From Prorocentrum cordatum (Eukaryota > Sar > Dinophyceae > Prorocentrales > Prorocentraceae): a DNA stretch of 64,000 nt. Below the pieces are notes generated by a model. That model did not search any database, had not been told where the DNA came from, and saw only the letters and a list, made by a program, of their open reading frames with translations. Shown here in pieces: positions 1,227 to 26,980 of the stretch. The stretch lies in the NCBI GenBank assembly GCA_963575745.1, contig CAUYUJ010016371.1:388524-452523 (forward strand), in the 5' to 3' direction. Made by a program: the position numbers and the translations under genes. Positions within the stretch are counted from its first letter, which is position 1. Each line of letters starts with the position of its first letter.

Positions 1227-1747
1227 GAGCCCAGAGCGGCCTCCGGCACCGTTTCCGGACGGATCCGCTGGATCCGCTGGATCCGGTGACGAATCCCAAA
1301 CCGGCGCCCTCGCCTGAGACATCCTCACAAAACGGGCCCCGGGGGGGATGCCCAGAGGAGCCCAGAGCGGCCTCCGGCACCGTTTCCGGACGGATCCGCT
1401 GGATCCGCTGGATCCGGTGACGAATCCCAAACCGGCGCCCTCGCCTGAGACATCCTCACAAAACGGGCCCCGGGGGGGATGCCCAGAGGAGCCCAGAGCG
1501 GCCTCCGGCACCGTTTCCGGACGGATCCGCTGGATCCGCTGGATCCGGTGACGAATCCCAAACCGGCGCCCTCGCCTGAGACATCCTCACAAAACGGGCC
1601 CCGGGGGGGATGCCCAGAGGAGCCCAGAGCGGCCTCCGGCACCGTTTCCGGACGGATCCGCTGGATCCGCTGGATCCGGTGACGAATCCCAAACCGGCGC
1701 CCTCGCCTGAGACATCCTCACAAAACGGGCCCCGGGGGGGATGCCCA
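1227..1747 (+). repeat. 131-bp satellite array, left part
   Basis: Four head-to-tail units with the CCCAGAGCGG landmark at 1230, 1361, 1492 and 1623, an exact 131-bp period. Each unit carries consecutive GGATCCGCT triplications and a GGGCCCCGGGGGGG tract. The units are almost identical, so the array is young or homogenised. The fourth unit breaks off at 1747 after ATGCCCA, where element E1 begins; the array resumes in phase at 15885. Confidence 0.97.
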
Positions 1748-1875
1748 CTGTGGTGAACTTGGGTGGTTGTAAGATTTAGCAGACTTAGCAAGTTGGTTTC
1801 GGAACTTACAAGTTGCGCTAACTGAGCGCAAGTAGTTGCAAGTACTTGCATGTTGACGTGCAGCCACTGCATTTT
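1748..1875 (+). repeat. E1 left terminal and subterminal repeat
   Basis: The terminus CTGTGGTGAAC is followed by GGTTGTAAG and several short repeats (AACTTACAAGTTG, AGTAGTTGCAAG, TACTTGCA). These resemble the CTTACAAC repeats at the other end in inverse orientation. Clustered subterminal motifs are typical transposase-binding regions in CACTA-type elements; that role is inferred. Confidence 0.75.
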
Positions 1876-2128
1876 TAGCTCCCGAATTGTTGTTTTTCTA
1901 TAAGCGATGCGCAAGGCGAGCGACACCTGCATTGGAAAGCAATGTTTTTTTTGCGCTGCTGCGCATAAGCAAGCAGGTAGCAGCTCACGCGATGTCTCAC
2001 CACTTGAACATGGGAGGCACTATCGCGATTGATCCGCCTCCATGGCGCCTGCATGCCTTGCAAGTCTTCGAACCTTTCTAACCAACCACAACGGACGTCC
2101 CGCATCGCAAATGTCCACCATGCATTTT

Positions 2129-4342
2129 TCACAATTGCACGTGTGCAAAGCGGACAGTTGCTTGCAGACGGCACGCCCGTATAGTGGTGGTGATGGTTCG
2201 GAAACTTGGCAAACGCCCCGCCATGGCAGTGATGATGTCGGTCGTGTGCACCAGCTGCAAGTCGTCGTCGGTCGGGTGCACGGTCAGCACGCCGAGCCGA
2301 TCATCGTAGCAAGGGGTGTCCCAGATTGAAACCAGCGATACCATCGTTCCGTTTACAGCAGCGTGAAACCAAACCTCCCCACACGCCTTGCCACCATTGG
2401 CAACGGAGAGCAGCACGATGTCGCGGGATTGGCATGTCGACAACGTCGACACCCGAGCCGAAAGAGCCGTGGTCGTGCTGTCCCTGGGGAGGCGCTGGCC
2501 GAGCTTCTCCTCCAGGAAGGCGTGCATCTTCTTAGGTGCCGCCCTGGGACACACCAAGTGCGGCGAGAAGTCGAACACGTTGGTGCTGCGCAAATTTGCC
2601 AACTGCAGGCATGTGACCTCGGACAGCACACTCCTCTCAGAAGCTGCCAGCTGGCGCATATCATTGCAGAACCGCTTGGGCACTCTGTGCTTTCTCTCGT
2701 GCACAAAACACGACATGAGGCATCCGAGCTTGATCAGGTGCCTTGGGAAATGGACCAGCCAGTGAAACTTCGGTGTCATGTATTCCTGCCACCCTGCTGC
2801 TTCACAAGCATCCAGAAACGCGTTCGTCCTGTTCCTGAGAGCGTCAGCAGACGCACGGGATGATGCTGCAGCTTCGATGCACCACACCAAATCACACAAA
2901 CGAACAAAAGCGGTGCACTCCGCGCGTGCTACCCCTGCAAGCAATATAACCGTCATCACATACGTATACATCATTGGCAGCAAAGTCAATGCCTCACTCG
3001 CCTGGCACTTAAACGCTTTCGCCTTGCCGTTGGAAGTATCGCGGCCCTTCTGAAAAAGCTTAGCCAAGTTATCAGCGCTGCCGTGCGCGATGGGCAGTGA
3101 CCACATCTTGATGTATTCCTCGAAACGTGAGTATACGTTGGACAAGCCATTATTCTTACAACCTGCAAGAAAGAGATGCGTCGAAATGTTAAAAACACCT
3201 CGAATAAAGAATGCGTGCATCCAGTCGTGGCAATACTGGTCAACAGGTAAGATAATGCGATCCAGCTGTGGATCGAGCAGCATGTTCTGCTCATTATGGT
3301 TGAAACCGAACGCTTGCCCGCGGATCCTGGGGCCACACTCGTCATCCTCGCATTCCCCTTCCAATCCCCCTCCCCTTCATCATGTTCCCACCCTTCATCA
3401 TCCTATAGGTCATTCTCCCTCCTTTGAGTTTGCAGGCCCCCCGCAGGTCTTGAAATTGGCGTTGGTGTCCGTCGCGTGGAATGCAGCCAGCCGCCGCACG
3501 CTCCCCCTGATGTCATCATTCGTCGCAAAATCGATGTCACCCTCACGCATGACGTCTGCTCTCAGCAGGGTCACCCCATCTTCGTCGACCAGGGAGCTGT
3601 CCATCGCAATTACATTGCGGCAAAGCATGCAGCACTTGGTACCTGCATCTCCTTTAATCAGCCAAACCAACTTCTGGGCACCGCCGTCCTGGAGAACCAT
3701 CCCAAGTTTGCAATGTAACCTGACTCCAGGCTCCAATGAAACGCCCGTTGTGTGCAGTGAGCAATCCGACCTACAAAACATGTCTTTTATAAGCATTTTG
3801 AATGCCTGTGCGACGCCTGCATCTATATCGGATACACGTTTTGACCTCAGGGCACCTACGCAAAACCACGCATCCTCTTGCGACATCACTTCTGGCCCCA
3901 GTTCTAGAAACGATACGTAGAACATCCACATCTTCCTTGAGTTGTCTGGGGATAGTTGGTTGCCTGGTGCTACCTCGTCAGAATAAAATATCAACGACCA
4001 CGGTCGCTCGAAAGAGCACGGCCTCGCCGCCAAAGTCTTTTGAATGAGGGCCCGCCAGTTGCTACATTGGTTGCACGCCACGTACAATATTGCAGGGAGA
4101 TTGGCAACAGGAAACTTAATCTCTGAATCTTTGGCAGAGCAAGTGATCTCACGGAACAAGGTACCATAAGGAGTCGACTGGTTTATGACCGAAGCTCTAG
4201 CATCACGGATATCCTTCCGTGATGCTGAGAAGGGTTCCCACGTGACCTCGTCCAAGATTGCAGCCAGTGCAGCAGCAGATACATGCGGACATTTCCGCCT
4301 CAAGGATTCTATCTTCTGGTACTTGTCAGGTTTGGGCACCAT
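2129..4342 (-). CDS. E1 DDE-like transposase, two ORF segments
   Basis: The first segment (4342-3410) has Y-S-D-E at residues 120-123, then a cysteine cluster (CCMLC, 237-241). The second (3364-2129) has DWMH at residues 47-50, PKFHWLVH near 198-205 and HERKH at 222-226. The order D, D-x-M-H, H-x3-H ... E resembles the DDE core of CACTA/Plavaka-type transposases; assignment of D122, D47 and E223 as the triad is inference. The 45-bp gap between segments, with a frame change, is either a short intron or a lesion: it falls in a poorly conserved linker, and the E2 homologue is open there. The homologue in E2 (23755-26054) aligns throughout, including a C-terminal beta-rich part. It is the last gene of the element, about 380 bp from the terminus. 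Confidence 0.8.
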
Positions 4343-5300
4343 GAGCAGCGCGACCGCGAGCCCGCCCTCGAGCTATATACGGCAACTGCGCGCATGGGGG
4401 TTGGCGCGCCGATGGCGCATAGAAGCGCATGCGTTCGCATAGGAAATATGGGGGGGGCTGAAACAGATGCGACTCATCATTTGAAAAGAATGCTTGCACC
4501 ACGGGCGCAGTCACCGTTGCAGACACCTGCACGCACCACTTCACCGAGCACATCAAGGATTGCATGGCAACAGCGTGCGCATGGCATGCGCAATCACCTG
4601 CGCCTCTGAACGCATGTCCTGCAATCGGGCGCGCGTGCTTGCACGCATCTGTGAATGCAGAGATCCTGCAGTTGCAGCTGAGTGCGCTCATGCAATCAAA
4701 ACTGCAATCAATATTGCAGAGGGCACATGTGTGCTGCCTGAATTGCACATGCAGTCATAACTGCATCGGCTGTTCGTGCGCCCGCCCCTCCCCAAACTCA
4801 CCTCGCCCATGCTTCCCCACATGTGCCCCACTGCCCCATGCACCCCCCCCTTCACCCTTTCCCTCCACCCCCCCCCCCCATGCGTCCCCCCGTCTGAGAA
4901 CGGACCCCTCCGCCGATCACATCCCCTGAGCGCGTGACCATGGTATACCGCGATGTGCAATCACACAAACAACATTGCAGCCACAGCTGCAAGCCCGAAG
5001 GCCGCGCCACGCGCGCGATTGCAGGGGGTGCTGCAGCGATGGGCGGAACGTGCGCTGCATGCGCAAATGCCGACACGTAAACGCGCGGAGAGACGCGCCC
5101 AAGTGCGCAGGCAAGGGAAATGGCATGCGATACATTGTTTTCTCATATGTACGCTAGCGGCGATCGGTTCGCAAAGCTCCGAAAGAACAAGATGCGAGCA
5201 ATGACGCACAACCCATACTCTGTACTCATATAGTGCATTTATAGAGACCCGTCAGCTCACGCATCCAATCAGAGCTGATGCCCGACATATCTGACATAGA
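4343..5300. other. E1 intergenic region, TGCA-rich
   Basis: No convincing gene. The sequence is unusually rich in TGCA and GCATGCG words, with a C-tract at about 4846-4890. It separates the transposase from gene B, both on the minus strand, so it may hold the transposase promoter or 5' leader; nothing specific is recognisable. Confidence 0.5.
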
Positions 5301-6848
5301 TCAGGCGTTCTTCTTGCTCCTCCACATCTCGCTTGCCGACCTGTATGCATCCTTTGCATAGTCGAGCGCCTGCTTCTCGGTACGGCCGTTTGCCTTGGCC
5401 CACTTGAGCGCCCGCCCGCACCACCTGGAAGCGACCGCATTCTGCGTGCACTGGCCGTCACACGGTTCAAAAACGATCTTGAAGACACCGCCCTTGGGCG
5501 CCCACGACGCTGCAGCGGGCTTCTTCAGGGCGGGCGCAACACCCGTTGCAGCAGCGGGCCTCTTCTTGGCCGCCGCTGGCTTCTTTGCAACATCCGTTGC
5601 AGCAGCGGGCCTCTCCTTGGCTTTGCGTTTGCCCTTCGTCACCAAAGCGTCGAACGCCTGCTTCTCGTGCGCCTCCTGCGCGACGCGATCCGCAGCCAAC
5701 GCTGCGCCAGCAGCAGTGGGCGCTGCGTCGCCCGCCGCAGGAGCTGCGTCACCATCAGCAGGAGCTGCTTCACCGTCGCCGAGTGGAAGTGCTGTGACCT
5801 TGGGCTCTGCAGCCCGAGCTGCATCTGCGGCTGGGGCCGCGCCTGCAATGATGCTCTTGCCTGGCTTGAACGACGCGGCTGGCAGGTGAGCAGAGCCAGC
5901 GCCCGATTGCCCTGCAGTGTACAAACCATGGATCTGAGCGGCCAGTTTATTCAAGTCAGAGCTGCCGTCCCAGCTCGAGTGCCGACCACCGTGCCGATCC
6001 TGCTGAAGCGGGGTAAAGTCAGACGACTGCCAACAGCCAGCCCGCTCTTTCTTGAGCAATATGTTGCTGTCGCGCAGCGGGATGTGCTTGCCTAGGAAGG
6101 TGTACAAGTCGATGACCTTCTCGACGGGCGGGTCGTCATCATCATAAGCAGCCGTGCGCAAGGATGCGGGCAAATCCGCAGGACGCTCGGGATACGTCGT
6201 GAGTGCCGACTTTGTGAATGGGGCCGATGTGTTTTTCATGTGGCCCACCAAATCGCGAAAGCTGTTGTAGATGCTCTGGTAGCTAGGCCAAGACTTGGTG
6301 TTCCCATGCTCGCACCAAATCAATACTACCATTGCCCATTTCAAGCACTTATCGTGCGCTGGCTGTAAGATTCCCAAACGATGCAACCGTGTTGCAAGGA
6401 TGGCCATTTTCTTGGTCTCCGACGCTCTGTAGTCCTCCAGGACCATCCAATCCTTGCCCGTCAGGTAGTTGTATATGTGGGACAGCGTCTGATCCCCAGC
6501 ATCGCTGATGCTACTTGGGACCGCTGCAGCGACGTTGGCGACCTTGATATCGACTGCCGCCAGCACTGCACGCTTCACGGAGGCTACCGTGCACTTCTTT
6601 TCAATCAACTCGGTGAGGACGATGGCATCTGGCGCTGAAAGCGCTGTGAGTGACTGTATGCGAGTGCACAGGGATGCAGACAAGTTTTTCTGCAGCTCCT
6701 CGCTGTCGGGGCGCTTCGCCAACAAGTCCGAAAAGTCAGAAACGTCGCGCGCTATGTCCTCGATACTGACCATGTCGGACTGCGCGCGGTGCACACTGAA
6801 CCCCTGCAGCACCTGCAGCCCCTCGAGGCTTGATCCGAACACGGCCAT
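5301..6848 (-). CDS. E1 gene B: conserved accessory protein shared with E2
   Basis: A 515-residue ORF. Residues about 35-215 form an alpha-helical domain that aligns with the first exon of the E2 gene at 17627 (shared pattern around TGKDW / TTDDW and the following helices). An acidic DDDDPP segment follows near 240. Residues about 340-455 are low-complexity Ala/Pro/Lys with RPAAA and KKPAAA repeats. The C-terminal 60 residues are a compact basic segment with two Cys. The Lys/Ala tails suggest binding to nucleic acid or chromatin. No known family is recognised. Its presence upstream of the transposase in both elements suggests a role in transposition, analogous to the second protein (TnpA) of En/Spm; that is inference. 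Confidence 0.75.
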   Translation of the reverse strand: MAVFGSSLEGLQVLQGFSVHRAQSDMVSIEDIARDVSDFSDLLAKRPDSEELQKNLSASLCTRIQSLTALSAPDAIVLTELIEKKCTVASVKRAVLAAVDIKVANVAAAVPSSISDAGDQTLSHIYNYLTGKDWMVLEDYRASETKKMAILATRLHRLGILQPAHDKCLKWAMVVLIWCEHGNTKSWPSYQSIYNSFRDLVGHMKNTSAPFTKSALTTYPERPADLPASLRTAAYDDDDPPVEKVIDLYTFLGKHIPLRDSNILLKKERAGCWQSSDFTPLQQDRHGGRHSSWDGSSDLNKLAAQIHGLYTAGQSGAGSAHLPAASFKPGKSIIAGAAPAADAARAAEPKVTALPLGDGEAAPADGDAAPAAGDAAPTAAGAALAADRVAQEAHEKQAFDALVTKGKRKAKERPAAATDVAKKPAAAKKRPAAATGVAPALKKPAAASWAPKGGVFKIVFEPCDGQCTQNAVASRWCGRALKWAKANGRTEKQALDYAKDAYRSASEMWRSKKNA

Positions 6849-7189
6849 GGAATGCCGATCGCACTTGACAAAGGGAAAACATGAATGACTACATGGAGCG
6901 TCACAACTTGCGCAGGGCGCATCGCATGCGTGACAAAGTGAAAATGGTAATGCGTATATGGGAAAACATCATGATGTCGGTTTAAGGCATCAATCTCATG
7001 TGCGTGCCAAGCCGATTGGCTGCATGGATGCGTTTCCGTTCGGGGGGCTTGCGGGTCAGACTCGCAGCTGAACCTGGTGGCGGTGGAAGGCAACATTTGT
7101 CTAACGCAGAAGCGCGCGGCTGGAACTCCGCGCTCGCTTGGCAAGATCACTCGGCAAGATCCGTCTCATCGATCCTCCTCCGCATTATC

Positions 7190-7320
7190 CTCCTCATCCC
7201 CCTCCTCCTCCTCCCCCTCCCCCACCCTCCTCACCCCCCTTCCCCCCCGCCCTGGCCGTGCTGCTTCTCTTCCTGGTCCTCCTCTCCCTCCTCCTCCTCC
7301 TCCTCCCCCTCCTCCTCTGA
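7190..7320 (+). repeat. CCT-rich microsatellite
   Basis: Imperfect CCT/CCC tract immediately before MITE copy 1. ORFs through it are low-complexity Pro/Ser/Leu. Confidence 0.85.
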
Positions 7321-7490
7321 CTACCTACCAGACCACCCCACCCCAACCCGAAGACCCGAATTTCGGGTTGGGGGGGGGGGGTAAGGGTTCCACATGTTTT
7401 TTTCGATGTTCCCAGCCCCCCCAACTGGAAATGGAGGGCAAATTGAGGCCTTCGGGTTGGGTTGGGGTGGTTTGGTGGGTGGTGATCCTC
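7316..7490 (+). mobile_element. MITE copy 1 within E1
   Basis: A 175-bp segment with long inverted ends: CTACCTACCAGACCACCCC on the left and GGGTTGGGTTGGGGTGG followed by TTTGGTGGGT on the right. The interior has a GGGTTCCACATGTTTT segment and AACTGGAAAT. A second copy lies at 8905-9085. No ORF, so it is a non-autonomous element. TSDs are not clear because flanking bases are shared between the copies. Confidence 0.8.
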
Positions 7491-7579
7491 ATCATCATCA
7501 TCATCCTCCTAGAAAGACGGCGCTCCGCCTGGTGCGGAACGCGCCCACCTCATGCACAGCGCGATGACCTTCCCGTGCG

Positions 7580-7690
7580 CCACGCACAGGCACGACGTGC
7601 TCGCGAGGTCGGCACAGGCACGACGTGCTCACGAGGTCCACCTGGCTGCACAGGCACGACGTGCTCACGAGGTCCACCTGGCTGCTCACG
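7580..7690 (+). repeat. Minisatellite around GGCACGACGTGCTC
   Basis: Three to four copies of GGCACGACGTGCTC(A/G)CGAGGTC at about 7588, 7616 and 7652; the core GCACGACGTGC is an interrupted palindrome. The following GACCTCTGGGATATC is also repeated (about 7706 and 7753), giving two DIPEV repeats at the end of the adjacent minus-strand ORF. Confidence 0.75.
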
Positions 7691-8060
7691 AGGCCGGCGC
7701 AGTCGTGACCTCTGGGATATCAGGTGAAGGCGACGAGGTCGGCGCAGTCATGACCTCTGGGATATCTTGAAGGCGCTGCAGCCGACCGAGCGACGTCGGC
7801 TTCGACTGCGTGGCGCATGAGCGCGAGCCAGTCCACAGGCGCCGCACGTCGACGAAGACCTGCTTCGCGTACTTGTTCTGCTCCGACTTGTTGGCCACAC
7901 CCTCGACGAAGCGCTTGAGGCCGAGGGCCATCTCCTTCCACTCGTTGCGACTCTTCGTGAGGTCGCGGATATTGGCCTTCATCTGCTCCTTCTCGCTCGG
8001 CCGCAGCGCCCGCGGCACATGCGGCGGCGCCGCCGCGTCAGCCCGCACCTTCGGCGCCAT
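7686..8060 (-). CDS. E1 small basic protein
   Basis: A 124-residue ORF starting MAPKVRADAAAPP. Residues about 20-75 are predicted helical and Lys/Arg-rich (SEKEQMKANIRDLTKSR then a KYAKQVF segment). The tail has two short repeats containing DIPEV that come from a local DNA duplication. It lies between the transposase/gene B pair and the other E1 genes on the same strand. No family is recognised. It could be an exon of a longer gene with the ORF at 9169-9838. Confidence 0.4.
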   Translation of the reverse strand: MAPKVRADAAAPPHVPRALRPSEKEQMKANIRDLTKSRNEWKEMALGLKRFVEGVANKSEQNKYAKQVFVDVRRLWTGSRSCATQSKPTSLGRLQRLQDIPEVMTAPTSSPSPDIPEVTTAPAS

Positions 8061-8184
8061 CGCGAAGGAGGCGCGAGGAGCTCAAGCGAGCGCGAGAAGG
8101 CGCGATGAGTGCGCGCTAACACTTTGAGCAAACCAGCTACACTACATCCCCACATGCCCCTCCCCATCCCCACCCCGCGGGCGC

Positions 8185-8300
8185 GAATGCAGTAGACTGC
8201 AGCCCTTGCCGTCGGGCGCGAATGCAGTAGGCTGCAGCCATTGCCGTCGAATGCAGTAGACTGCAGACATTGCCGTCGGGCGCGAACGCAGTGGACTGCA
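8185..8300 (+). repeat. Four-copy array of GCAGTNNNCTGC
   Basis: Near-palindromic 12-mers GCAGTAGACTGC, GCAGTAGGCTGC, GCAGTAGACTGC and GCAGTGGACTGC start at 8189, 8224, 8253 and 8288 (spacing 35, 29, 35). They are separated by CAGCC-TTGCCGTCGGGCGCGAA. Probably binding sites or a decayed minisatellite upstream of the small basic gene. Confidence 0.75.
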
Positions 8301-8671
8301 GCCCTCGGGCGGTCAGAGGGAAGCAATGGGCAGCAACATGATGCACAATCTCAGGAACATCTGGCGAATCGGAGAGCAGCGGGAGGCGATGCAACACGCG
8401 GTGTAACGAGAATGAGGACTGCATCGGAGGGCGATGCAGTCTGTGGCGGAGGGAGTGAGGGCGGCTGGGGACAAGACGCACGAGGGGAGGGAGATGTGGT
8501 TCACAGATCCACGAGCGGTCAATCATCCCGCTGGGATCGCGCGCGGCCTCATATCGGCCACGCGAATGTCTGGCAGCCGCGCAGGCGGCAGCGCGTCATG
8601 GCGCCTGCCCTAGAGCCTGCGCTCAGCCAAATCAATCTCTTATGCTCTGCACGAGCCTGGACGCATAACAA

Positions 8672-8866
8672 CACTTGAAAGTGTGAATACACTTTGAAGT
8701 GCGGAGGCGACGTCACTTCAAAGTGCGATCACACTTCGAAGCGCATAACCTGTTACTTCAAAGTGCGAATACAAATTGAAGTGAGGTGTCATCGCGCTTC
8801 AAAGTGTGATCACACTTCCAAGTGAGGCCGACTACGCACTTCACAATGTGATAACACTTCGAAGTG
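8672..8866 (+). promoter_or_regulatory. Phased array of ten palindromes CACTTNNAAGTG
   Basis: Ten copies of a 12-bp palindrome (some degenerate) start at 8672, 8690, 8714, 8732, 8754, 8772, 8795, 8813, 8837 and 8855. The spacing alternates 18 bp with 22-24 bp, so they form five pairs repeating every 40-42 bp. Within a pair the linker is itself palindromic in the best copies (GTGTGATCACAC), making each unit one 30-bp palindrome. Such symmetry suggests cooperative binding of a dimeric protein. It lies inside E1 between minus-strand genes, about 300 bp downstream of the gene ending at 9169 and 600 bp upstream of the start at 8060. Function is inferred. Confidence 0.75.
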
Positions 8867-8904
8867 ACGTGGGCGCAGTCGCCGTGGTTCACCCACGGCC
8901 ATTG

Positions 8905-9085
8905 TCATGACTACCTACCATACCACCCCAACCCAACCCGAAGACCCGAGTTTGACCCGAATTGCGGGTTGGGGGGTACGGATACCATGTGTTTTTCAAC
9001 GTTCCCCGACCCTCCCCCACTGGAAATCAAGGATAAATTTGGGCCTTCGGGTTGGGTTGGGGTGGTTTGGTGGGTGTTGATGTCA
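8905..9085 (+). mobile_element. MITE copy 2 within E1
   Basis: The same 35-40-bp inverted ends as copy 1 (CTACCTACCATACCACCCC and GGTTGGGGTGGTTTGGTGGG) and the same interior words (ACCATGTGTTTTTC, ACTGGAAATCAAGG). It is about 80 percent similar to 7316-7490 by eye and in the same orientation. It abuts the palindrome array. Confidence 0.8.
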
Positions 9086-9168
9086 GCTGCGACGCCGACG
9101 TGCCTCATAGCAGCGCCCCCATCACCTCATAGATGAACGAGAGCGCCTCGTAGACGCCCGCCAGCTTC

Positions 9169-9838
9169 TCAAAGTGGAAACCTGCCCGACTTGGGCTTGT
9201 CCTTGCCCTTGCCCTTGCCCTGGCCCTTCGAGTCGAAGCGCTCGCGGGCCTCGGCCAAGATGCGCTCGACCGTGTCGTAGTCGGCACTCTTGTAGGCCTC
9301 GATGGCCTTCTCGCCCTGGTCGGCGAACCAACCGCTGCCCTTCTGGATCTCGCCAGTGGCCATGGCCGCGATCACCGCGTCCCACCCTGCCCAGTCCTCG
9401 GCGGCGTACTTGTCCGCCAAGCGCATGAGCCTCGCCGACCAGCCGCCGCGCACCTGCTCGCCGCCGACGGCGCCCTTGTTGTAGCGGTGGTCCATCGGCG
9501 TGGGCGCCGCGGGCGGCGGCGGGAGCGGCGGCGCGAGCACCGAGGGCGGTGGCGTCGATGGCGGCTTCGGCTGCTTCTTCGCAGCAGGCCACGCCCTGAT
9601 GATGCCGCCCCCTGCCGCCGCCGCTGCATCAGGCGCAGCCGCAGGCGCAAGCGATGCCGCAGCTGCGGCCTGCTCGTCGAGCATCTTCTCGAGAAACTCG
9701 GCGTAGTGCACGACCTCGAGGAAGTGCAGCGGCTCATCCGTGAGGCCCTCGGGCGACTCCTCCTCCTCCTCATCATCATCCCCTTCATCGCCCTCCTCCT
9801 CATCCTCCTCCTCGTCCTCCTTCCCTTACAGCTCCCCA
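9169..9838 (-). CDS. E1 acidic/Ala-Pro-rich protein with QGKGKGK tail
   Basis: The open frame reaches from about 9838, just after a possible splice acceptor (TGTAAG on the minus strand), to 9169. It begins with an acidic run of Asp/Glu (about 25 residues), so the CCT/CAT-rich DNA at 9755-9830 is coding here. Then come HYAEFLEKMLDEQ, an Ala/Pro-rich linker, and a helical domain with WAGWDAVIAAMATGEIQ and KAIEAYKSADYDTVERIL. It ends in a GKGKGKDKPKSG tail. No family is recognised. A first exon upstream, beyond the fold-back element, is likely. Confidence 0.5.
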
Positions 9839-9947
9839 TCCCTTCTTTGGCCGCCCGAGATTCGGTTTGGCGGCTCCCCCCCCCCCTCTTCGGTTTGACG
9901 GTTGCCCCCCCCCCCGCCCCTCTTTGTCGCCAGCCCTCCGCCGAGCC

Positions 9948-10163
9948 AGCGTGCGTTTGTGATCCCACTGCCCCCTTTTCCCGCGGGCGGAAGGCCGTCG
10001 CGCGTGGAAAAACACACCGAACGCGCCAGAACGCGATCTCACAAAATACGAAAAACAACGTGTTGTTTGCATGGCCCGTTTTGGTCGGTAATGGTATGTT
10101 TTTCCACGCGCGACGGCCTCCCGCCCGTGGGAAAGGGGGCAGCGGGGTCACAAACGCATCTGC
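9948..10163 (+). mobile_element. Fold-back element (66-bp arms)
   Basis: Arms at about 9949-10017 and 10096-10163 are inverted copies: GCGTTTGTGATCCCACTGCC leading to GCGCGTGGAAAAACACACC, and TTTTTCCACGCGCGACGGCC leading to GGGTCACAAACGCA. They differ by a few substitutions. The loop (about 78 bp) has no ORF. It lies between minus-strand E1 genes, probably in an intron or spacer. Confidence 0.8.
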
Positions 10164-10194
10164 CCTGAAGCAGGAAGGGGAGAGGAGGGAGGAA

Positions 10195-10310
10195 AGACAA
10201 GGGCATGAGGAGGGAGGAGGAAGCTGGACGAGGCTGAAGGAAAAAAGATGAAGAGGGGAGGCATGAGAAAGAGGAGGAGGAGGAGGAGGCGGAGGAGTAG
10301 GAGGGGGGGC
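10195..10310 (+). repeat. GGA-rich microsatellite
   Basis: Purine tract (GGAGGA, GAGGAGGCGG) between E1 genes; no coding signal. Confidence 0.8.
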
Positions 10311-10326
10311 GATAGCCCATCGAGCC

Positions 10327-10890
10327 CTATATGGGCCCAGTCGTCCCCATGGGCCGTCGTAGGCCAACCGCTGTTGCAGGCGCACTGCAAAAGTCAATCT
10401 CCCCCACCCCTTCCCCCGCCCGCCCCCTGGCCTTGACGAGCTCGGTCGGCCACGTCGCATGGTCGCCGATCCCGCTGGCGCACACGCAGCCGTCTGGGTA
10501 GTACAAGATCGAACCCACGTCCAACGTGCTGGAGACCACCCAGCGCGAGAAGGTGTGCTCCTCGTCCGCATGCACAATGTACACCAAGAAGAGCTCGCTG
10601 GTGTTGGCCCCGTCGGGCGCGCCAGGCTCCTGCCGATAGATCGGCGAGCCGTTCACGTAACCCACCTTGTAGTACACGCCCTGCAGGCACTGCACCAGGC
10701 CGTCGTTGGCGTCCTCGTTGCTGCCCTGCAACCTCCTGAACGCGAGGCTGTCCGCGAACTTGGCCACGCGCTCGCCCTTGCGCGCCTCCGTCGCGGTGAG
10801 CAGCATCTGGAAGTCCATGCTGCGCGGCCGCGACGGCTTGGCACGCTTGGCAGCCCTGGCGTCGTCCTCGGCGGAGGCCGACCAAAAAAA
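10327..10890 (-). CDS. E1 unrecognised protein with NGSPIYR motif
   Basis: The convincing part starts near 10890 (AEDDARAAKRAKPSRPR) or at Met 10818 (MDFQMLLTATEARKGERV). It reads through LQGVYYKVGYVNGSPIYRQE, SELFLVYIVHADEEHTF, SRWVVSS and ILYYPDGCVCASG, a beta-strand-rich domain with alternating hydrophobic residues. Codon use and hydrophobic patterning look real. The open frame continues upstream to 11133 over less protein-like sequence, so a splice site near the T-tract at about 10885-10893 is likely. A basic KRAKPSRPR segment could be a nuclear localisation signal. Family not recognised. Confidence 0.5.
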   Translation of the reverse strand, partial: FFWSASAEDDARAAKRAKPSRPRSMDFQMLLTATEARKGERVAKFADSLAFRRLQGSNEDANDGLVQCLQGVYYKVGYVNGSPIYRQEPGAPDGANTSELFLVYIVHADEEHTFSRWVVSSTLDVGSILYYPDGCVCASGIGDHATWPTELVKARGRAGEGVGEIDFCSAPATAVGLRRPMGTTGPI

Positions 10891-11204: not shown

Positions 11205-11335
11205 GCGCGGGGCCGCGCCTGAAGCCCTCGAGGGGCTCGCGGGGGCCTCGGCAGGCCCCTGAAGCCCTCGGGGGCGCCGCGAGCGCCTCGAGGGGCTCGC
11301 GGGGGCCTCGGCAGGCCCGCGGCGCCGCAGGCTGG
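11205..11335 (+). repeat. Tandem GC-rich repeat, about 70 bp
   Basis: GAGGGGCTCGCGGGGGCCTC followed by GGCAGGCCC occurs at about 11229 and 11293, with GAAGCCCTCG preceding the first and recurring between. On the minus strand it reads as Arg/Pro/Ala repeats and is probably not coding. Confidence 0.7.
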
Positions 11336-17626: not shown

Positions 17627-19271
17627 TTGGCAACCATGATCGCACATGATTCCCAGACCTTCGTGCGCACGCAGGCTGCGTTGAAGTACGTTCGGACCAA
17701 CATAGAGGCTGGTGTCCCGCGTGAGGCGGTCGCTGCGGCCGCTCAAGGTGCGTTGACTCGACTGTTCGCGTCTGTTCCTTCGCTCGACTTCTCCGAGGCT
17801 GGCCCCATCATCGAAGCAATCAACAACAGTGATCTGGATGGCGAGATGAAGACTGGCTTGATCGACCTTGTGAACAGCAAGGTTGGGGGCTCTCTCAGCG
17901 GCGGCGGCCGTCGGACAGACAACCAGGTAAACTACTACGTGCAGCGCCAGCTCACCACCGACGACTGGAACAAGCTCATGGATAAGAACGTCTCGGTCCA
18001 GCTGAAAATTTTAACGGTTGTCAACCGTATGGAGTCGATCGGTTGCGTGTTCCCGTCCGAGCACACGATGACTCACATCGTGGGATTGATCACTCTGGCT
18101 TCGTCACCGCCTGGGGCCCGTGACATTGGGGTCTTGCTGCAGAACGCGTGGCAGATGTTGCAGGACGTCAAATTGGCCTTCAGACGCACTCGCACTCGGG
18201 TCAGGTTGCCGCACCACGGAGCCATCGCCGAGTACCCTTCGAACGTGGACTCGATGAGCACGAGCCACGTGGACATGTACAAGAGGGCCTACTCCTCAGA
18301 AGGACCAGCGCCCTGCCGCGTCGACGAGACGCTGCTCTGCGAGCTGAGGCACGGGGGGCGGCACCCCTCCCCAGCAATCTTTGCAAATCAACAAATGACG
18401 CCATTGAGGGTCTGTAGTTTGTTTCACGTTCGACTTTCCATTGTGTTGTTTTTTGTTTTTTCAGCTTCTTTCACGTTCGACGTTCCTTTTTTTATATTTT
18501 TTTCAGCTGGGGAGGGGTGGCGCCCATGACAGGCAGCGGCTCCCAGCGCGCAGGACCCACCACACGGTGGCGACGCCGATCAAGACGTCGTGCCGCGGCC
18601 CCCGCAGCATGCCAGAGATCCACGGCGTGCCAGGCTTCGCGTGGCTGCCCGTGGGCAACGCCGCTGCGCAGATGGCTAAGCATGCTGCTGAGGAGGCCCT
18701 TGCGCGTGCAGGGCCACTTGCCTTGATGGACGGGCCTGCGCCCGCGGCACCTGTGCTTGCGGCGCCAGGTCCGGAACCGCCTGCGGCTGCAGGCGCCGCA
18801 GCAGCTACGGCGGCGTGTGAGCCCGCGCCTGCAGCGGGCTCAGGCGGCGCCATCGAGAAGGGCAAGAGCGTCGACGACATCATCGATGGCCTGGCGAAGC
18901 ACGTCAAGAAGAAGGTCCCCGAGCTGGTGCGGCGCAAGCCAGCAGCGGCTCAGGCCAAGCCCACTCCGAAGAAGGAGACGTCGACACCCATGAAAAAAAT
19001 TAAGAAGAAGGCGGCCAGCAGTGCGAAATCCAAGAAGGCGGCGACCATCGACACCAAGCAGCTCCAGAAGCACCTCAAGCAGTTCCCCTTCCCAGGCATC
19101 CCAAAGGCCCCAATGGAGCCCGTGAGGGCGGGCAACTACGCCATCTACACTGACCGCACCAAGCGGGCGTGGCGCGTCAAGGAGAACAACGTCAGGACGG
19201 ACAAGGCCTTCGGCTGGGGCGTGGACTGCGAGGGGTCGTGGCGCCGTGCGATCCACTACATCTTCGCGTGA
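17627..19271 (+). CDS. E2 gene B: homologue of the E1 accessory protein
   Basis: Exon 1 starts MATMIAHDSQTFVRTQAALK and holds the helical domain (LTTDDWNKLMDKNVSVQLKI, NRMESIGCVFPSEHTM) that aligns with residues 35-215 of the E1 gene at 5301-6848. Coding similarity continues to about 18370. A likely intron follows, from about 18409 to 18508, with a long T-rich tract ending TTTTTTTCAG. Exon 2 (about 18509-19271) reads MPEIHGVPGFAWLPVGNAAA, an Ala/Pro linker, Lys/Ala-rich repeats (KKAASSAKSKKAA) and a compact C-terminal segment (DKAFGWGVDCEGSWRRAIHY). The layout of helical domain, Lys/Ala linker and small tail domain matches the E1 protein, though the tail sequences have diverged. The exact splice sites are inferred. 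Confidence 0.7.
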
Positions 19272-20455
19272 TCGGTAGGCTCGCCACCGTGCATGCGAGG
19301 CGTGCAAACTGAGGCAGGCGACCTCAGAGAGTGATGCAGGGGGGGGAGGGGTAGTAACAAAACCTACTGAGGAAACAGAGTGGGCATGGGCAGTAGTTAG
19401 ATATGCGAGTTAACGATTTTGTAGAGAGCTCTCGGCGATCCCTTCAGATCTGCGGCCGAGCTCAAGGGGGAGGTGCACATGTACTGTGCAGCCCAACGGA
19501 CCCTCGGGGAGGGGTCGCGCAGCGTCGGTGTCGAAATAAATCCTTGAGCCTGAAAGGGAGGGGGCCAGCTTACATTGCCCCCATCCCCCTCCCCGTCCTC
19601 CCCCTCGTCCTCCCCCTGCTCCTCCCCCCATCCGACCTTCCTCCTACCCCTCCTCCTCCTTCTCCTCCTCCTCCTCCTCCTCCTCCTCATCATCCTTCTT
19701 CTTCTCTCTCGCAGTTCATTTTCTATATGGTTTTACGACGTGAGCGCTTCGCGCGGGGGGGGCACCCTTCCTCCTCCTCCTCCTCCTCCTCCTCCCCCTC
19801 CTCCTCAAGATTTTGCCCCGCCAGATGTTGTTTGCCGCGGTCTCTCAGGGAGTTTGCCCCGCCAGATGTCGCCCCCCGCGGTCTCTGAGGGAGTTTGCCC
19901 CGCCAGAGTTCGCTCCCCGAAGATTGGCGCCTGGGGAGTTTGGCAACTGAAAAAATGGAGGTTCATCAATTCCATTGCGTTTTCAAGTTAGCGGGCGCGG
20001 TCAGGGAGGAGGAGGAGGAGGAGGAGGAGGAGAAGGAAGAGGAGGAGGAGGAGGAGGAGAAGGAGAAGGGCAGGAGGAGGAGGAGGATGAGGATGATGAG
20101 GAGGAGGAGGAGGAGGAGGAAGGAGGACGGCGTGATTTCAGGGGCCCTCAGAAATCACATCGACTCGGGCGGGGGGAGCACGAACACACCTCGAACTACG
20201 GAAAACGGAAACCGACCACTTTGGGACGAAAGGGGTCGGTTTAGGGGAAGAGGAGGCGGAGGCGGAGGAGGAGGAGGAGGAGGAGGAGGAGAAGGAGAGG
20301 GAGGAGGAGGAGGAGAAGGAGGATACACGTCGTAAACTCAAGTTGGAAGCTCGTCCCTGACTCGACTCGCGCCGAATACAGCAACCGATTCGGCTCAAGT
20401 CGGAGGCTCGTCCCCGATCGTTTCGGCAACGACAGTTTCGGCACCGACCGTTGCG
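19272..20455. other. E2 spacer with GGA/CCT microsatellites
   Basis: No gene supported. CCT tracts at about 19590-19690 and 19765-19805 and GGA tracts at about 20008-20130 and 20245-20325 dominate. The sequence GTTTGCCCCGCCAGATG is repeated at about 19812, 19850 and 19887 (two or three decayed copies). A hairpin-bearing repeat lies at 20176-20270. Confidence 0.7.
20176..20270 (+). repeat. Inverted repeat arm a, with internal hairpin
   Basis: About 90 bp containing AACCGACCACTTTGGGACGA and AAGGGGTCGGTTT, which can fold into a stem (AACCGACC/GGTCGGTT with CTTT/AAAG). The reverse complement occurs at 23355-23447 with few differences, flanked on the same side by GGCGGAGGCGG. The pair brackets the zinc-finger and KH-like genes of E2. 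Confidence 0.85.
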
Positions 20456-21556
20456 ATGGTGAGCAAGAGGCCTGCGGCAGCTCCTGCGCGCCTGGCAGAG
20501 GATGAACCTGTCCCCCGCCCTCCAGCGGAGCTGGAGGCCAGCCTCGACGCCGCCATGGAGGCGGCAGTTGCAGTTTTGGACGTCAAGGAGGAGCAGGAGG
20601 AGCCCGACGAGGGATGCGACGAGGAGGACGCCACCGCGGGCTTCGGCGACGCGGCCTCCACGGCCGACGAGACTGAGACCTCGAAGCTGTGCTGCAGCTG
20701 CAACCAGTTCTGGCACGTCGACTTCATGAAGGCCGTCAACAAGACTAAGAACCAGCTACGCTGCACTGGGTGCCACAACGCGCGCAGCAGGATCAACCGC
20801 ATGAAAAAGGGCATGGTCATGGACTCGCTCACGTCGCTCGAACCCGCGGACCGCCACGACTTCATGCGCAAGGCCCACGGAGCATTGGGGAACGACTTGT
20901 GCGCCCTCATCAAGGACACGATCACAGTCATGAAGACGAGGAGGATCACTTCTAGCATGAGTATCGGTGGGCCTTTCGAACCCCTGGAGGAGGCCCAGAA
21001 GAGGTATGCTTCGAACCCTGACATGTGGAAGAGTATAGAACAGAACGCCCAGCGGATCAAGTGCCCCATCAGGAACTGCACCATGATCCAGATCCCGACT
21101 TACGAATCGAAGACCGAGAAGGAGACGATCGTGGAGGAGTCGCGCAAGCGCGAGGCGGAGACCGAGCTGCAGTCCAAGAAGGCGAAGAAGGCCAAGCCTG
21201 ACGATGCGGCAGCTGACCCGAACCAGATCAAGAGTATCACCTCATCCCAAAAGAAGAAGCTCGAGAGTCTGCGCGCCAAGCTGCAGGATATCGGAGAGCG
21301 AACCACTGAGGCGAAAGAGCAGGCCGAGAGCCCGCAGGGCTCAGAGAACGTGCCCAAGCACTTCGTCACCAAGCTCGCGAACAGCCTAAGCAAGATCGAG
21401 GAGACGAGCAAGCTCATCAAGGATACCATCGAGGGTGGCCAGGCCCCTAAGTTTGTCTACACAAAGCTGAGCAACGATGTGACGGAGGTGGTCAACAAAG
21501 CATCTACCATAATCTCGCAGGTGGAGCTCCTCTTCCAGCAGGCCACTGAGGACTGA
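20456..21556 (+). CDS. E2 zinc-binding coiled-coil protein
   Basis: A clean 366-residue ORF starting MVSKRPAAAPARLAEDEPVP. An acidic N-terminus is followed by a probable zinc ribbon: CCSCNQFWHVDF ... LRCTGCHNARSRINR (residues about 81-116; C-x2-C, 27-30 residues, C-x2-C). A helical region follows. Then a basic patch (KKAKKAKPDD, near 240), and the last 110 residues are heptad-like with charged helices (KKKLESLRAKLQDIGERTTE, LANSLSKIEETSKLI, VVNKASTIISQVELLFQQ). A DNA- or RNA-binding, possibly dimeric, nuclear protein is suggested. No counterpart was recognised in E1. Name of family unknown. Confidence 0.75.
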   Translation: MVSKRPAAAPARLAEDEPVPRPPAELEASLDAAMEAAVAVLDVKEEQEEPDEGCDEEDATAGFGDAASTADETETSKLCCSCNQFWHVDFMKAVNKTKNQLRCTGCHNARSRINRMKKGMVMDSLTSLEPADRHDFMRKAHGALGNDLCALIKDTITVMKTRRITSSMSIGGPFEPLEEAQKRYASNPDMWKSIEQNAQRIKCPIRNCTMIQIPTYESKTEKETIVEESRKREAETELQSKKAKKAKPDDAAADPNQIKSITSSQKKKLESLRAKLQDIGERTTEAKEQAESPQGSENVPKHFVTKLANSLSKIEETSKLIKDTIEGGQAPKFVYTKLSNDVTEVVNKASTIISQVELLFQQATED

Positions 21557-22500
21557 TCTGTGGCCTCCTGATGTTGGCTCTAGGTGCGACTCCAGTTGTC
21601 TACAACAGTCCCTTAAACAAAACAACATTGTGTGAAAATCGCTGCCCCGAACACCAGACTTGGAAATCGGGCCCAGGACCTGGGGAGAGGATGCCGAGAG
21701 ATGCAGTCTGGAATCGCATGTGCTAGTTGCGCGCGCAGCCCTCTCCCTGCAGCTATAGGCGCCTGCGTTCCAGCCTAGGCGCTGCTACGCGATAGCCCGT
21801 CATGAGTGGCGGGATAGGGGATGCTTGGGTCAGTCTGGCGGTAGGGTCGAGCTTGAGGTGGCGAGAGTTTCGGCAACTGGTTACGTGAAGAACAGCTTGA
21901 GTAAGTTGGCTTCTTGGGGGGAAATGGATACGACGAATCTGAATCACGATTGGGCCGTCTTGGTTTATCGGAAACGCAGCGCAGACCAAACCACGCAAGC
22001 TAACAACAAATAAACAAAGCACTGCAACATGCACAATCAACGTAAAGTGACACAACGCACACAGAAGCACACACGCACACCACACTACAAGAACACACTG
22101 CAACACACCACAGTATCTACCCCGTATCTACCCCGTATCTACCCCGTATCTACCCCGTATCTACCCCGTATCTACCCCGCATCTACCATGCACATACATT
22201 TACCTACCCAGACGGCAGGGCGGGGCGCGTCCGAGCTGATCCTCCGCCCATCCCCTTCCTCCTCCCTCCTTCTCCTCCTCCTCATCCGCCTCCTCCTCCT
22301 CCTCGTCCTCCTCCTCCTCCTCCCCCTCCTCCTCCTCCTCCTCCCCCTCCTCCTCCTCCTCCGCCTCCTCCCCCCCTCCTCCTATCTTGGGCCCAAGATT
22401 GGCCTGGCCAAGATCGGTGCTGTTGGGGGCGTGCGTGACGCGCTCTGGAATGCGGGGGTGCAACAATGCAGTGCGATGACGGCATCCCCCAAGCGCCCTC
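21557..22500. other. E2 spacer
   Basis: No supported gene. Contains an 11-bp tandem repeat (22113-22196) and a CCT tract (22255-22380). A T-rich stretch ending GTCCGTAG at about 22513-22530 could be the 3' splice site of the next gene. Confidence 0.5.
22113..22196 (+). repeat. 11-bp tandem repeat TATCTACCCCG
   Basis: About seven perfect or near-perfect head-to-tail copies, the last with CATCTACC. Confidence 0.95.
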
Positions 22501-22529
22501 TCACCTCCTCTTTGTTTTTTTTTGTCCGT

Positions 22530-23011
22530 AGCCGAGCGGCTCAAGGATGTTGTCGGCGGCAGCGTTCCAAGATGATCTCACTGGTCTTCTCGGCCCATTC
22601 GTGCTCCCAGATGGCGGCACCGTGACTGCCGAGGACCAAGCTGAGATACAGCGCCTCACGGGATGTAAAGCATCAGTGCGAGAACGTAGTCGGCAACATC
22701 CTGGCAAGCGGCTCTTGACAGTCCACGGGCCACCAGAGTGGTTGAGGTACGCTTACTACCTGGCGCTGACGAAGGTCGAGGCCAACGGCGAGCACGGCGG
22801 GAGAAGGTCGAGGCCAACGGCGAGCACGGCGTCGGCAACGCTGTTGAGGCCGCCTCCAGGTCTTGGGCACGAGTCTGGCGCAGCCGCTGGCAACCCGACC
22901 GAGATGCAGAAGGCTCGGGCCGAACCGCCGCACTGGGACACGTGGGAGCACGGGATCGCCATGGGCGAAGTCGACGGCACCACCGAGGCGGCGCGCCGTG
23001 AGAGCGCGTGA
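22530..23011 (+). CDS. E2 KH-domain-like protein
   Basis: Met at 22547 (MLSAAAFQDDLTGLLGPFVL) opens a 154-residue ORF, possibly preceded by an exon joined after the T-rich GTCCGTAG at 22530. Residues about 28-75 (EIQRLTGCKASVRERSRQHP, GKRLLTVHGPPEWLRYAYYL) follow the KH fold pattern: helix, TGCxxxxR strand, G-x-R-x-L-x-V-x-G strand, then a helix. The canonical GxxG loop is not obvious, so RNA binding is uncertain. The tail is Ala/Glu-rich. A 27-bp DNA duplication (AAGGTCGAGGCCAACGGCGA, about 22774 and 22804) adds a repeat just after the domain. Confidence 0.5.
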
Positions 23012-23754
23012 GCCGTGCCGCACAGAGTTTCAAAACATATGAACGGGGAGGGAGGGAGGGACTGAGGAAAGGGGAGCGGGGCTAGCACAACAGAAAAGCA
23101 TACAGACAGATCAGAAAATTACACCAGAAAAAGAGCCCAACGGGAAACACCGAGCAGACAGACCACACCAAACAGAAATCTAGCAAACTGGCAATGCACC
23201 TGCTCGTCGGGATATCCCCTATGTCCTAACACAACAGCAACTTGAAAAACAAGGAACTCCTCAACGTCACTCCTCCCCCTCCTCCTCCTCCTCCCCCCCC
23301 TCCTCCACCCCCTCCTCCCCCCCTCCTCCTCCTTCTCCTCCTCCTCCTCCTCCTCCTCCGCCTCCGCCTCCTCTTCCCCTAAACCGACCCCTTTCGTCCC
23401 AAAGTGGTCGGTTTCCGTCTTCCCTAGTTCGAGGTGTGCTCGTGATTCGCTTGCACGCTCTCTGCATTGCTCCCATTGCTCCCCTCCTCCTCCTCCTCCT
23501 CCTCCTCCTCCTCCTCCTCTTCCTCCTCCTCCTCCTCCGCCTCATCCTCCTCCTCCTCCTCCTCCTCCTCCTCCCCCTCCTCCTCCCCATCCTCCTCCTC
23601 CTCATCATCCTCCTCCTATCCTCGCCCTATCCTCACCTCCTCTCCTGCAATCCCATCCTCTCCTCCCGTCGTCTCCCCCCATCTTCTGTTCGTTTCATCG
23701 CGCGCGCCTACGCAGTTGCAGTGTAGGCCCGAGCGATGTTGTGCACATGTTTGT
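23012..23754. other. E2 spacer with inverted repeat arm b and CCT arrays
   Basis: No gene. CCT arrays occupy about 23270-23365 and 23482-23625; poly-Ser/poly-Leu frames there are microsatellite translations. The arm at 23355-23447 is the inverse of 20176-20270. Confidence 0.75.
23355..23447 (-). repeat. Inverted repeat arm b
   Basis: Reverse complement of 20176-20270, including AAACCGACCCCTTTCGTCCC and AAAGTGGTCGGTTTCCG. With its partner it could be a pair of hairpin terminators, or the ends of a decayed 3.3-kb insertion. Confidence 0.85.
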
Positions 23755-26054
23755 ATGAAACGACCTGCTTCTCACGATATACGCGTTTCTTCGAGGGCTC
23801 GGGCTGAGCAGTTAGTTCGGGATGGGCTTGCCGAGTCGGTCGAGTCTGCACGGTGGGACATCAGGCGGGACTTGGGTCAGCGAGTCGACATTCGGACGCC
23901 AGTCGGGCCAGTGAAATCGCACATGCCTTTAGAATGTACCGATGGTTCTGAGTACCTTGCTTTAGTATTGCACCCGTGCGCCTTGCTGTACCACTTATGC
24001 GATACGAATGCAGCTTTCGCAACATTCTTGCACGCGCAGTTTCAAGCTCGCAGCTCTGACTCGTCTGTTGTAATTTACACGGATGAGTGTACGACTGGGA
24101 ACGCGTACAGGCACGACCACGCGACCAAGTACCAGTGCATATATTGGACATTTTCGTTCTTCCCTGATTGGTATCGCAGCAGGGCTTGTGGCTGGTTCAC
24201 ATATGCGTTTATCCCCGTTGCCCGACAGGTAGAACTAAAAGATGGTCTCGCCCAGATTGGTAAATTGATTACGAAGAATTTTTTTTCGTCGGACTGCGAT
24301 TTGACTTCGGGCGTGGTCCTTCCGATTGGCAGAAGTGGGCAACACTTTCGTTTATGCGCAAAGCTCCTATGCCTCATGCAAGACGAAAAAGCACATAAAG
24401 AGTATTGCTCCCTTCGCGGGGCCAGTGGAACAAAGGTATGCATAAAATGTAAAAATATCACACGCAATGTATCTTACGGGCCGACAGAGCCATACTGGCG
24501 AGATTGCTTGACCACTTTACCGCTTGATTTCGACCCCCACACAGACGACACTGTTGACCAAATGTTGAAGCTCCTTCGTGATGTAGCTGAGCCTGCTGAC
24601 GGACGCCGCGCTACGAAATCTCACGTTGAAACCATGGAGCAATTAACTGGTATCAAATACCAACCCAATGGGTTGTTATGGGACAGGACGCTGAAACCTC
24701 ATTTCAGCGTGGTTTCTCACATAGCGGAAGATTGGATGCATGGGTGTTGTTCTTCTGGGGGGATCGGGCAATACGAGTGCAACGCATTTGTCATCGCAGT
24801 AATAAAGAACAGCGAACTTAAACGACAGGGCCTGGATTTAGCAAAAATAGACGAGTTTCAACAAACAATACGGTGGCCAGGGCGTGGGCGAGGTCTTAGC
24901 AAAGAGTTCTTTAGAAAACAAGTTCGCATGGACGATGCTGGCCACCTAGCATGCTTTGCAACCGAGACGATCATGGCCGTAGAAGTTCTGATGTTCCTAT
25001 CTGTTCTGGTCCTTGAGCCACAAGGCCATCTTCAAGGACAACGAGACTGCCTCGCTCGATTGCACCGCATGCTGGGCATCTTACGTCACGGGTGGGATAA
25101 ACGTGAACAGTGTTGCAATTGCGCTTTCCGACCGAACACACACTACCCAAAAACAACGACAAACGAAGAACCAACAATGTCGTATCTGCCCGTCCTCCAT
25201 TTTCCCATATCCTTCCTCGCCCTGTCCCTCTCATCCCTCACGGGCCCCTTTGTGTCCCTCCCCATTCGCCCCGCGTCCCGCTTTCACCAGTTTAGCTCTA
25301 AAAAAAGAACACCAAAAGCGAGATTGCAACACTATTCAAACTTGCTTCCCCAGGGATGGGCGACCGCGCTGTTCAGTATTCTGGGCTGCTTGCCAATGTT
25401 GCAGTGGAACACCATGAGCGGTACGTGTCGGTTTACGGTTTGGGTGTTGTGAAGCCAAAGATCCATTACGTACACCATTCTATACTCAACCTCCCCCGTC
25501 TACGTGTGAATGTTTCGTGCTTCGCGTGTGAGCGAAAACATAAAGATTGTAAAGCTATAGCCCAACGTTGCACGACCGAGCAAGCGGCCCCCCACATCAT
25601 TGATCTTGTGTTGTGCGAGCTTGAAGAGAACTTGAAAGACGTGAACACGTTTGTGCCTGAGTATATTGATGGGGCTGCAACGCCACAGCCGCAGTTGCGC
25701 CATTTATTTCAGACGATTTCCCCGCGAGTTGGGCCCGCCATTTGCACGTGCTCGGTGGTTCAGACTCGGATAGGGACGGTAAAAGCTGGTGACTTCGTGC
25801 AGTGCTCTCACAATGGACACAACCACCACGGGCTCGTAGATTTGTTTGTGCAGGGCGCCGATCTCGATAGCGGTGCGCTGACCATCGCAGTGGCGATCAC
25901 TCTTTACAGGCGGTCCGTTGAGAACGGTCTGTGGCTTTCGACAGGCAGGAGGCTTGCTCTGCCAGTTTCCGCCCTTTTGTGTGCGTTCCCATTTGTCCTG
26001 CGGAGGGCAGGATTATTTACGTTGGAGCAGCCCGTTCCTTTCACTTCGGGCTGA
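23755..26054 (+). CDS. E2 DDE-like transposase
   Basis: Probable start MKRPASHDIRVSSRARAEQL at 23755, just after a CCT array in the same frame. Motifs: Y-T-D-E at residues 108-111, CIKC at 229-232, EDWMH at 325-329. A likely intron (roughly 25090-25352, pyrimidine-rich, acceptor CTTCCCCAG) precedes the second exon, which has KPKIHYVHH and CFACERKHK. These align in order with the E1 gene (2129-4342). The C-terminal part shares a VKAGDFVQCSHNGHNHHGLV region with the E1 tail. D110, D326 and the E of ERKH are the inferred catalytic triad, as in CACTA/Plavaka-type transposases. The gene is last in the element, about 890 bp from the terminus. It appears intact apart from the intron. Confidence 0.8.
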
Positions 26055-26945
26055 TAATGCTTGTGCCGAGCGCAGCGAGGAGAAACCTTTGCGGGCGAGG
26101 AGGCTCGCACATACACAAAAAAAGCAAACAAACAAACACGCATCAACACACGAAGAAAACATGTTCGTTATTGTTGAGCGTTGAGGAGGCTCGCCCCTCA
26201 ACGTGTTACAATAAACCAATACACGCAACACACACAAACAGTAAATGAGATGAGGAGGAGGAGGAAGAAGAGGAGGAGGGGGAGAGGATGAGGAGGAGGA
26301 GGAAAAGGAAGATGAGGAGGAGGAGGAGGAGGAGGCGGAGGATGGATGACGATGACAACGGCAACTGCGATTGCGATAGAACTCACAAACACGTTCACGT
26401 CGAGGGAAAAAATGCGGAGGTACGGGCCCAAGAGGGCCTGTGATGGCACAACGTGGTTTCCAAAATGCGGCATAACATCGCCTCATACATGCCTCCAAAA
26501 GGCCCCGATACCACGTGCATTGCAAACCTTGCAACGACCCCCGCCCCCAAGATGTCAAAATCCTGGCCCAAGGGCCGCCATCCGTTTTGCGCCCCGATCG
26601 TTTCAGTGAGCCCTGCGAGTGCCCCGCGCCCCCGAGAAACCCTAAGAGGCAGCCGATCATTCAACGTATGCTCCTTCTCGCGTGTCCATGGTCATTGCGA
26701 TTTATTGCTGTTGCCCTATTTGTGTCAACGCACATGTCTGTTGTTGACGTGTCTTCGCCGTGTGCAAACGAGAGGCATACTTAGGCGTTACTTACGTTTT
26801 ACTTAGGTATAGTTATGAAACACTTACGTGCGCGCTTGGTATACTTACGTGGTACTTATAACTAGTTCACATGTGTGTACGGGGTACTTAACACTAAGTA
26901 CTTCTAAGTAATGTAGGAGTAGCGTAAGTGCCCGCGCCCGCGAAG
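26055..26945 (+). repeat. E2 right subterminal region and terminal repeat
   Basis: The 3' flank of the transposase, with a GGA microsatellite (26250-26345) and no supported gene. The last 170 bp are packed with ACTTA/TACTTACG words (TTACTTACGTTTTACTTAGG, CACTTACGTGCGCGC, ATACTTACGTGGTACTTATA). It ends TCCTACATTAC-inverse ... GCCCGCGAAG at 26945. Confidence 0.7.
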
Positions 26946-26980
26946 CAGAGCGGCCTCCGGCACCGTCTCCGGACGGACGA
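26946..26980 (+). repeat. 131-bp satellite remnant after E2
   Basis: CAGAGCGGCCTCCGGCACCG followed by TCTCCGGACGGA matches the satellite in register with its break at 17221, with one substitution (TTTCC to TCTCC). The match ends at about 26980; from there the sequence is unrelated, so this is the right edge of the array. Confidence 0.85.

Follow-up and report, generated by a model that had tools for sequence, protein, structure and literature searches.

What interrupts the tandem array at the left of this stretch of Prorocentrum cordatum DNA, and where do the interrupting segments belong among known transposons? The stretch analysed here (contig CAUYUJ010016371.1, positions 388,524 to 452,523; 64,000 nucleotides in all, hereafter the window) contains near-identical copies of a 131-base-pair (bp) satellite, and the array is broken twice, by two long segments that we call E1 and E2. 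We consider it quite probable that both are autonomous-looking cut-and-paste DNA transposons, probably dinoflagellate, which belong to an apparently undescribed, deep-branching lineage of the RAG1/Transib-CACTA (CMCT) clan. This reading builds on the ends of the elements, the CA repeats that flank them, the restoration of the empty site, the homologous transposases and gene B, the conserved catalytic and zinc residues, the RAG1-like fold and BAH tail predicted for a close homolog of the E2 transposase, and the clusters of motifs near the ends.

Two elements interrupt one satellite array

E1 (1748-15884; 14,137 bp) extends from CTGTGGTGAAC, starting at 1748, to GTTCACCACAG, ending at 15884, and has a perfect 11-bp terminal inverted repeat with a partial match further inward. 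E2 (17222-26945; 9,724 bp) extends from CTTCGCGGGC, starting at 17222, to GCCCGCGAAG, ending at 26945, with a perfect 10-bp terminal inverted repeat. The terminal dinucleotides of both elements are CT..AG, in agreement with the inverted ends starting with CT described in the original prediction, and each element has CA on either side. The satellite occupies positions 1227-1747 to the left of E1 (4.0 copies, the last bases being CA) and 15885-17221 between the elements (about 10 copies, with CA at both borders). To the right of E2 there is a stub that begins with CA (26946-26977; 32 bp, 96.9% identical to the satellite), the shortness of which indicates that the array stops just past E2.

When the flanks are joined with one CA retained, the array is restored in register as 14 full units and the stub, with 11 units of 131 bp and 3 units of 140, 134, and 134 bp that reflect small changes within the unit. 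The joins at both junction pairs thus bear out the earlier proposal that the elements split a single satellite, which re-forms in phase when each is excised together with one CA. The octamer GCCCAGAG is paired in the satellite, the two starts being 10 bp apart (e.g., 1350 and 1360) rather than 12 bp, as was initially stated. In the rejoined array, E1 lies in the first octamer and E2 in the second, both in the predicted context GCC-CA-element-CA-GAG.

Inverted ends accompanied by a 2-bp repeat are not special by themselves, since the window holds 148 inverted pairs of 10-mers with a 2-bp direct repeat, E1 and E2 among them. The ends of E1 and E2 carry weight because they coincide precisely with the two points at which the satellite is interrupted, and a 2-bp CA target-site duplication by both insertions is supported. 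Near-identical tandem units are a classic site of misjoins, and the arrangement could accordingly be an artefact of assembly, in which satellite repeats were wrongly connected to unrelated segments. However, perfect inverted ends and identical CA dinucleotides stand exactly at the joins of both segments, and beyond each segment the satellite is taken up again in phase, so that we regard a misjoin as extremely improbable.

The GC content is 57-59% inside the elements versus 45-51% in their 400-bp ends, and the ends carry clusters of short motifs, which are of the CTTGCAA/CTTACAA type in E1 (1748-2247 and 15385-15884) and TAAGTA/ACTTA in E2 (17222-17721 and 26446-26945). All 11 copies of TAAGTA and 22 of the 27 copies of ACTTA in E2 are located in its ends, with no TAAGTA in the interior of about 9 kilobases; the ends of E1 hold 6 of 8 CTTGCAA, 5 of 7 CTTACAA, and 13 of 45 ACTTG copies. 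Because the motifs were chosen from the ends themselves, the P values computed for them are too small, and the informative part is the contrast between ends and interior.

Homologous transposases and a second gene

The named genes share one direction within each element, minus in E1 and plus in E2, and the transposase comes last. The E1 transposase (2129-4342, minus strand) has two exons separated by an intron near 3320-3465 (approximate) and keeps the D-D-E, C(2)C, DxxH, and H(3)H residues. Eighteen splice choices for this intron preserve the reading frame; their donors are GA or GC throughout, and no GT donor that keeps the frame was found in the range scanned. The E2 transposase (23755-26054, plus strand; 682 amino acids) is encoded by exons 23755-25102 and 25354-26054 around a GT-AG intron (25103-25353) and, by homology to a relative designated P0011, would comprise a RAG1-like core and a BAH-like tail.

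Compared exon by exon with phmmer, the two proteins match each other at 2.3e-17 and 4.3e-07, which substantiates the homology initially claimed, with BLAST identities of 29% and 26%, and the E1 exons match a family profile that includes E2 with probabilities of 99.8% and 99.3%. A tree built from 20 proteins pairs E2 with P0011 (100/99) and leaves E1 as a lone branch of length 2.91, the placement of which is unsure; nine homologs, mostly partial, were omitted, four exon pieces were merged into two rows, and the midpoint root serves for drawing only. The E1 and E2 transposases are homologous yet deeply diverged. Their 27 homologs include Skav225686 from EukProt, which we take to be a protein of the dinoflagellate Symbiodinium/Fugacium kawagutii, and 26 proteins from ena, jgi, lgn, and ncbi. 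Within the window, tblastn searches with the transposase family and gene B gave matches in E1 and E2 only. Among 267 stretches of viral contigs and 187 stretches of prokaryote genome contigs picked out by a pattern, there were no relatives, and BFVD yielded 220 matches with E values of 10 or less, none of which reached 0.001. Rfam, at gathering score, returned nothing in the window.

Gene B of E1 (5301-6773, minus strand) is an uninterrupted open reading frame (ORF), whose product is 50-51% identical to three ENA proteins. It also shares 92-93% identity with a partial protein from Prorocentrum cordatum, where 47% is covered, and that protein probably comes from a second copy or allele. Together with Skav225686 among the transposase homologs, this match points to a dinoflagellate as the probable host. 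Gene B of E2 (17618-19271, plus strand) consists of ORFs 17618-18529 and 18408-19271. With a threshold of E 0.01, neither BLAST nor phmmer matched the two, and hhalign assigned a probability of 17.5% with E 0.0014. Aligned pairwise over chosen domains, they score 64, which none of 2000 shuffles reached (best 63), and the three ENA relatives of the E1 protein score 69-87 against E2, each with 0 of 1000 shuffles. Hence, the homology proposed for gene B is not seen by BLAST or phmmer but is borne out by the domain alignment, which rises above shuffles and is a weaker test than the transposases passed.

Probable placement in the CMCT clan

According to PMC12730594, the CMCT clan includes RAG1/Transib and CACTA/EnSpm, has duplications of 2-5 bp and, in most cases, 5'-CA..TG-3' ends. 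What the present family has in common with the clan are the C(2)C and H(3-4)H residues between the second D and the last E, the 2-bp CA duplication of E1 and E2 and, in P0011, a predicted RAG1/Transib-like fold. In each of the 26 rows that could be measured, the C(2)C pair follows D2 by 19 positions, and H(3-4)H is located 22-23 before E in all 21 rows in which E was found, with E1 and E2 included in both cases (31 rows were given, of which P0015 was missed by the pattern and four were without the region). P0011, which is close to E2, is predicted to fold into a RAG1/Transib-like catalytic core followed by a BAH tail. Predicted fold and residues together support the assignment of the transposase to the described CMCT clan, and the placement rests on these two features because neither Pfam nor the PDB gave a clan match at the sequence level. 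The tail of E2 beat all 500 shuffles in comparison with 4 of 17 relatives (P0011, P0015, P0025, and P0027); for the remaining 13, between 1 and 493 of 500 shuffles equalled or exceeded its score.

Several observations weigh against this placement or against the broader interpretation of the elements. The CT..AG ends are unlike the CA..TG usual in the clan, although they are still compatible with it, because the rule is given for most cases and Plavaka A, with TGT..ACA, is an exception (PMC12730594). No CMCT family of Pfam matched any of the 31 family members or their consensus, the Pfam hits being to nine families with one member each (best E 0.0011), and sequence profiles searched against the PDB did not find RAG1. 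The predicted fold is that of the homolog P0011 and not of E1 or E2 itself. Moreover, E1 showed no BAH tail when searched for one: in comparisons with 17 relatives, its score was reached by 25 to 408 of 500 shuffles and, in a second test, the score was 13.7 with 60 shuffles ranging up to 18.7. Finally, the ends and the duplication are known from one insertion per element, and the structure model of gene B is poor (pLDDT 48.5).

Comparison with known transposon groups

E1 and E2 could instead be ordinary but diverged CACTA/EnSpm elements that, like the CACTA elements of plants, are equipped with accessory genes and subterminal repeats. The subterminal repeats of CACTA elements are binding places of accessory proteins, and the motif clusters and the second gene found here are CACTA-like. 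The residues of the clan are also shared, and the 2-bp duplication is inside the clan's range of 2-5 bp (PMC12730594). However, the EnSpm families described in PMC12730594 have CAC..GTG ends and 3-bp duplications, as opposed to CT..AG and 2 bp here. In addition, none of the 31 members has an EnSpm match in Pfam, and the E2 transposase has a predicted BAH tail; we give membership in CACTA/EnSpm only a small chance. From Transib/RAG1, where Transib duplicates 5 bp, E1 and E2 differ by their 2-bp CA duplication and CT..AG ends, by the predicted BAH tail fused to the E2 transposase, and by having no detectable match at the sequence level. The fungal CMCT lineages Plavaka A and ESTA resemble them in 2-bp duplications and CMCT residues, but Plavaka A has TGT..ACA rather than CT..AG ends and ESTA duplicates TA rather than CA (PMC12730594).

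Set apart by description from EnSpm, Transib, Plavaka A, and ESTA, the lineage that we propose within the CMCT clan is apparently undescribed, with an entry in Repbase being possible. The original prediction had recognised no described superfamily, and this stands for the lineage and not for the clan, which is described and identified here by predicted fold and residues. KDZ/Zisupton elements were considered as well, because of the multi-gene size, and rejected: Zisupton and Kyakuja have duplications of 8 bp and 7 bp, respectively (PMC12730594), versus 2 bp here, and no KDZ family of Pfam matched the 31 members.

Target choice and a possible mechanism

Both insertions, two of two, are in the same satellite octamer, and the window was selected because of them. 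The chance of hitting one of the two octamers is 2/131 (1.5%) if the target is uniform, and 2/7, or 2/12 with both strands (17-29%), if CA is required. A strong target-site preference is suggested by these two insertions, and we put a real preference for the octamer site or for the satellite at about even odds. Alternatively, and compatibly with our interpretation of the elements in all other respects, CA or a loose motif may suffice, with two chance landings where insertions survive. The chances given CA, the number of events, and the choice of the window favour such landings, whereas the uniform-target chance and the agreement of two deeply diverged elements in satellite, octamer, register, and duplication speak against them; we regard the absence of a preference as a serious possibility that falls somewhat short of an even chance. 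Of the multi-gene family with a 2-bp duplication and strong target preference that was originally envisaged, the related multi-gene elements and the CA duplication therefore stand, and the preference is only suggested (two insertions; 1.5% to 29% depending on the model).

For the mechanism, we infer activity of the elements, the roles of gene B and the BAH tail, and the choice of target from the features described above. The RAG1-like DDE transposase would bind the inverted ends, and an accessory factor, for which gene B is a candidate, would prepare both ends by acting on the motif repeats in their vicinity. The transposase would then excise the element and insert it at a target whose strands are cut 2 bp apart, whereupon host repair would leave CA on each side. 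The satellite step GCC-CA-GAG was used by both insertions, and little harm would be expected there. In E2, the transposase may be guided to its place in chromatin by its BAH tail, and it is a conjecture that a chromatin-reading tail could explain a bias toward the satellite.

Target-specific DNA transposons are known from Dada, a different superfamily with a longer duplication. Dada is specific for multicopy sequence (PMC3706591), the targets being small RNA genes, unlike in the present case. If the preference for the satellite is true, E1 and E2 would represent another kind of target-specific DNA transposon alongside Dada.

Broader implications

RAG1 is the enzyme to which vertebrates owe their antibody diversity. 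It catalyses V(D)J recombination and is derived from Transib elements (PMC12730594). A family of RAG1-fold transposases in dinoflagellates, whose genomes are very large, would give the CMCT clan a protist branch. With the BAH domain predicted for this family, the idea that a transposase can contain its own chromatin reader becomes open to testing. A more far-reaching proposal is that of a dinoflagellate-wide, undescribed RAG1-like multi-gene lineage of superfamily rank that has CT..AG ends, duplicates the 2 bp CA, and in which a BAH chromatin reader in cis directs insertion into satellite at GCC-CA-GAG. We consider this rather unlikely; if true, protists would possess an equivalent of the RAG1 core combined with the RAG2 chromatin reader. 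In the open-licence literature, such elements in dinoflagellates were absent from the titles and abstract beginnings among the matches listed. The available parts of the P. cordatum genome paper (PMC10666404) and of a review of dinoflagellate genomes (PMC11453091) do not name such elements, nor do they contain the words CACTA or satellite.

Other features of the elements and the window

Both elements carry further ORFs. In E1, these include ORFs on the minus strand at 7689-12357, which are ORF calls only, and two at 12824-15529, also on the minus strand, of 519 and 381 amino acids with no Pfam match. In E2, an ORF with two CxxC pairs (20336-21556, plus strand) is bracketed by the arms of a 139-nucleotide inverted repeat (20166-20304 and 23319-23457; 90% complementary). 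No duplication flanking this repeat was seen by eye, and repeat and ORF are possibly a nested module. Ten ORFs of E1 and E2 gave three weak Pfam matches (E 0.0088 to 0.046), all under the cut-off, as were both matches of 20 ORFs elsewhere in the window.

E1 contains a long hairpin at 9952-10158, with arms at 9972-10018/10093-10139 (91%) and 9952-9981/10129-10158 (90% complementary), which is perhaps an introner-like insert. Also within E1, a 42-bp tandem repeat at 8672-8867 is built from palindromic CACTT..AAGTG blocks. Outside the elements, the window holds back-to-back runs of the 5-bp repeats CTTAG and TAGCA (40123-40542), 3.9 copies of a 73-bp unit (48322-48609), and a 165-bp repeat (63581-64000) that continues past the end of the window.
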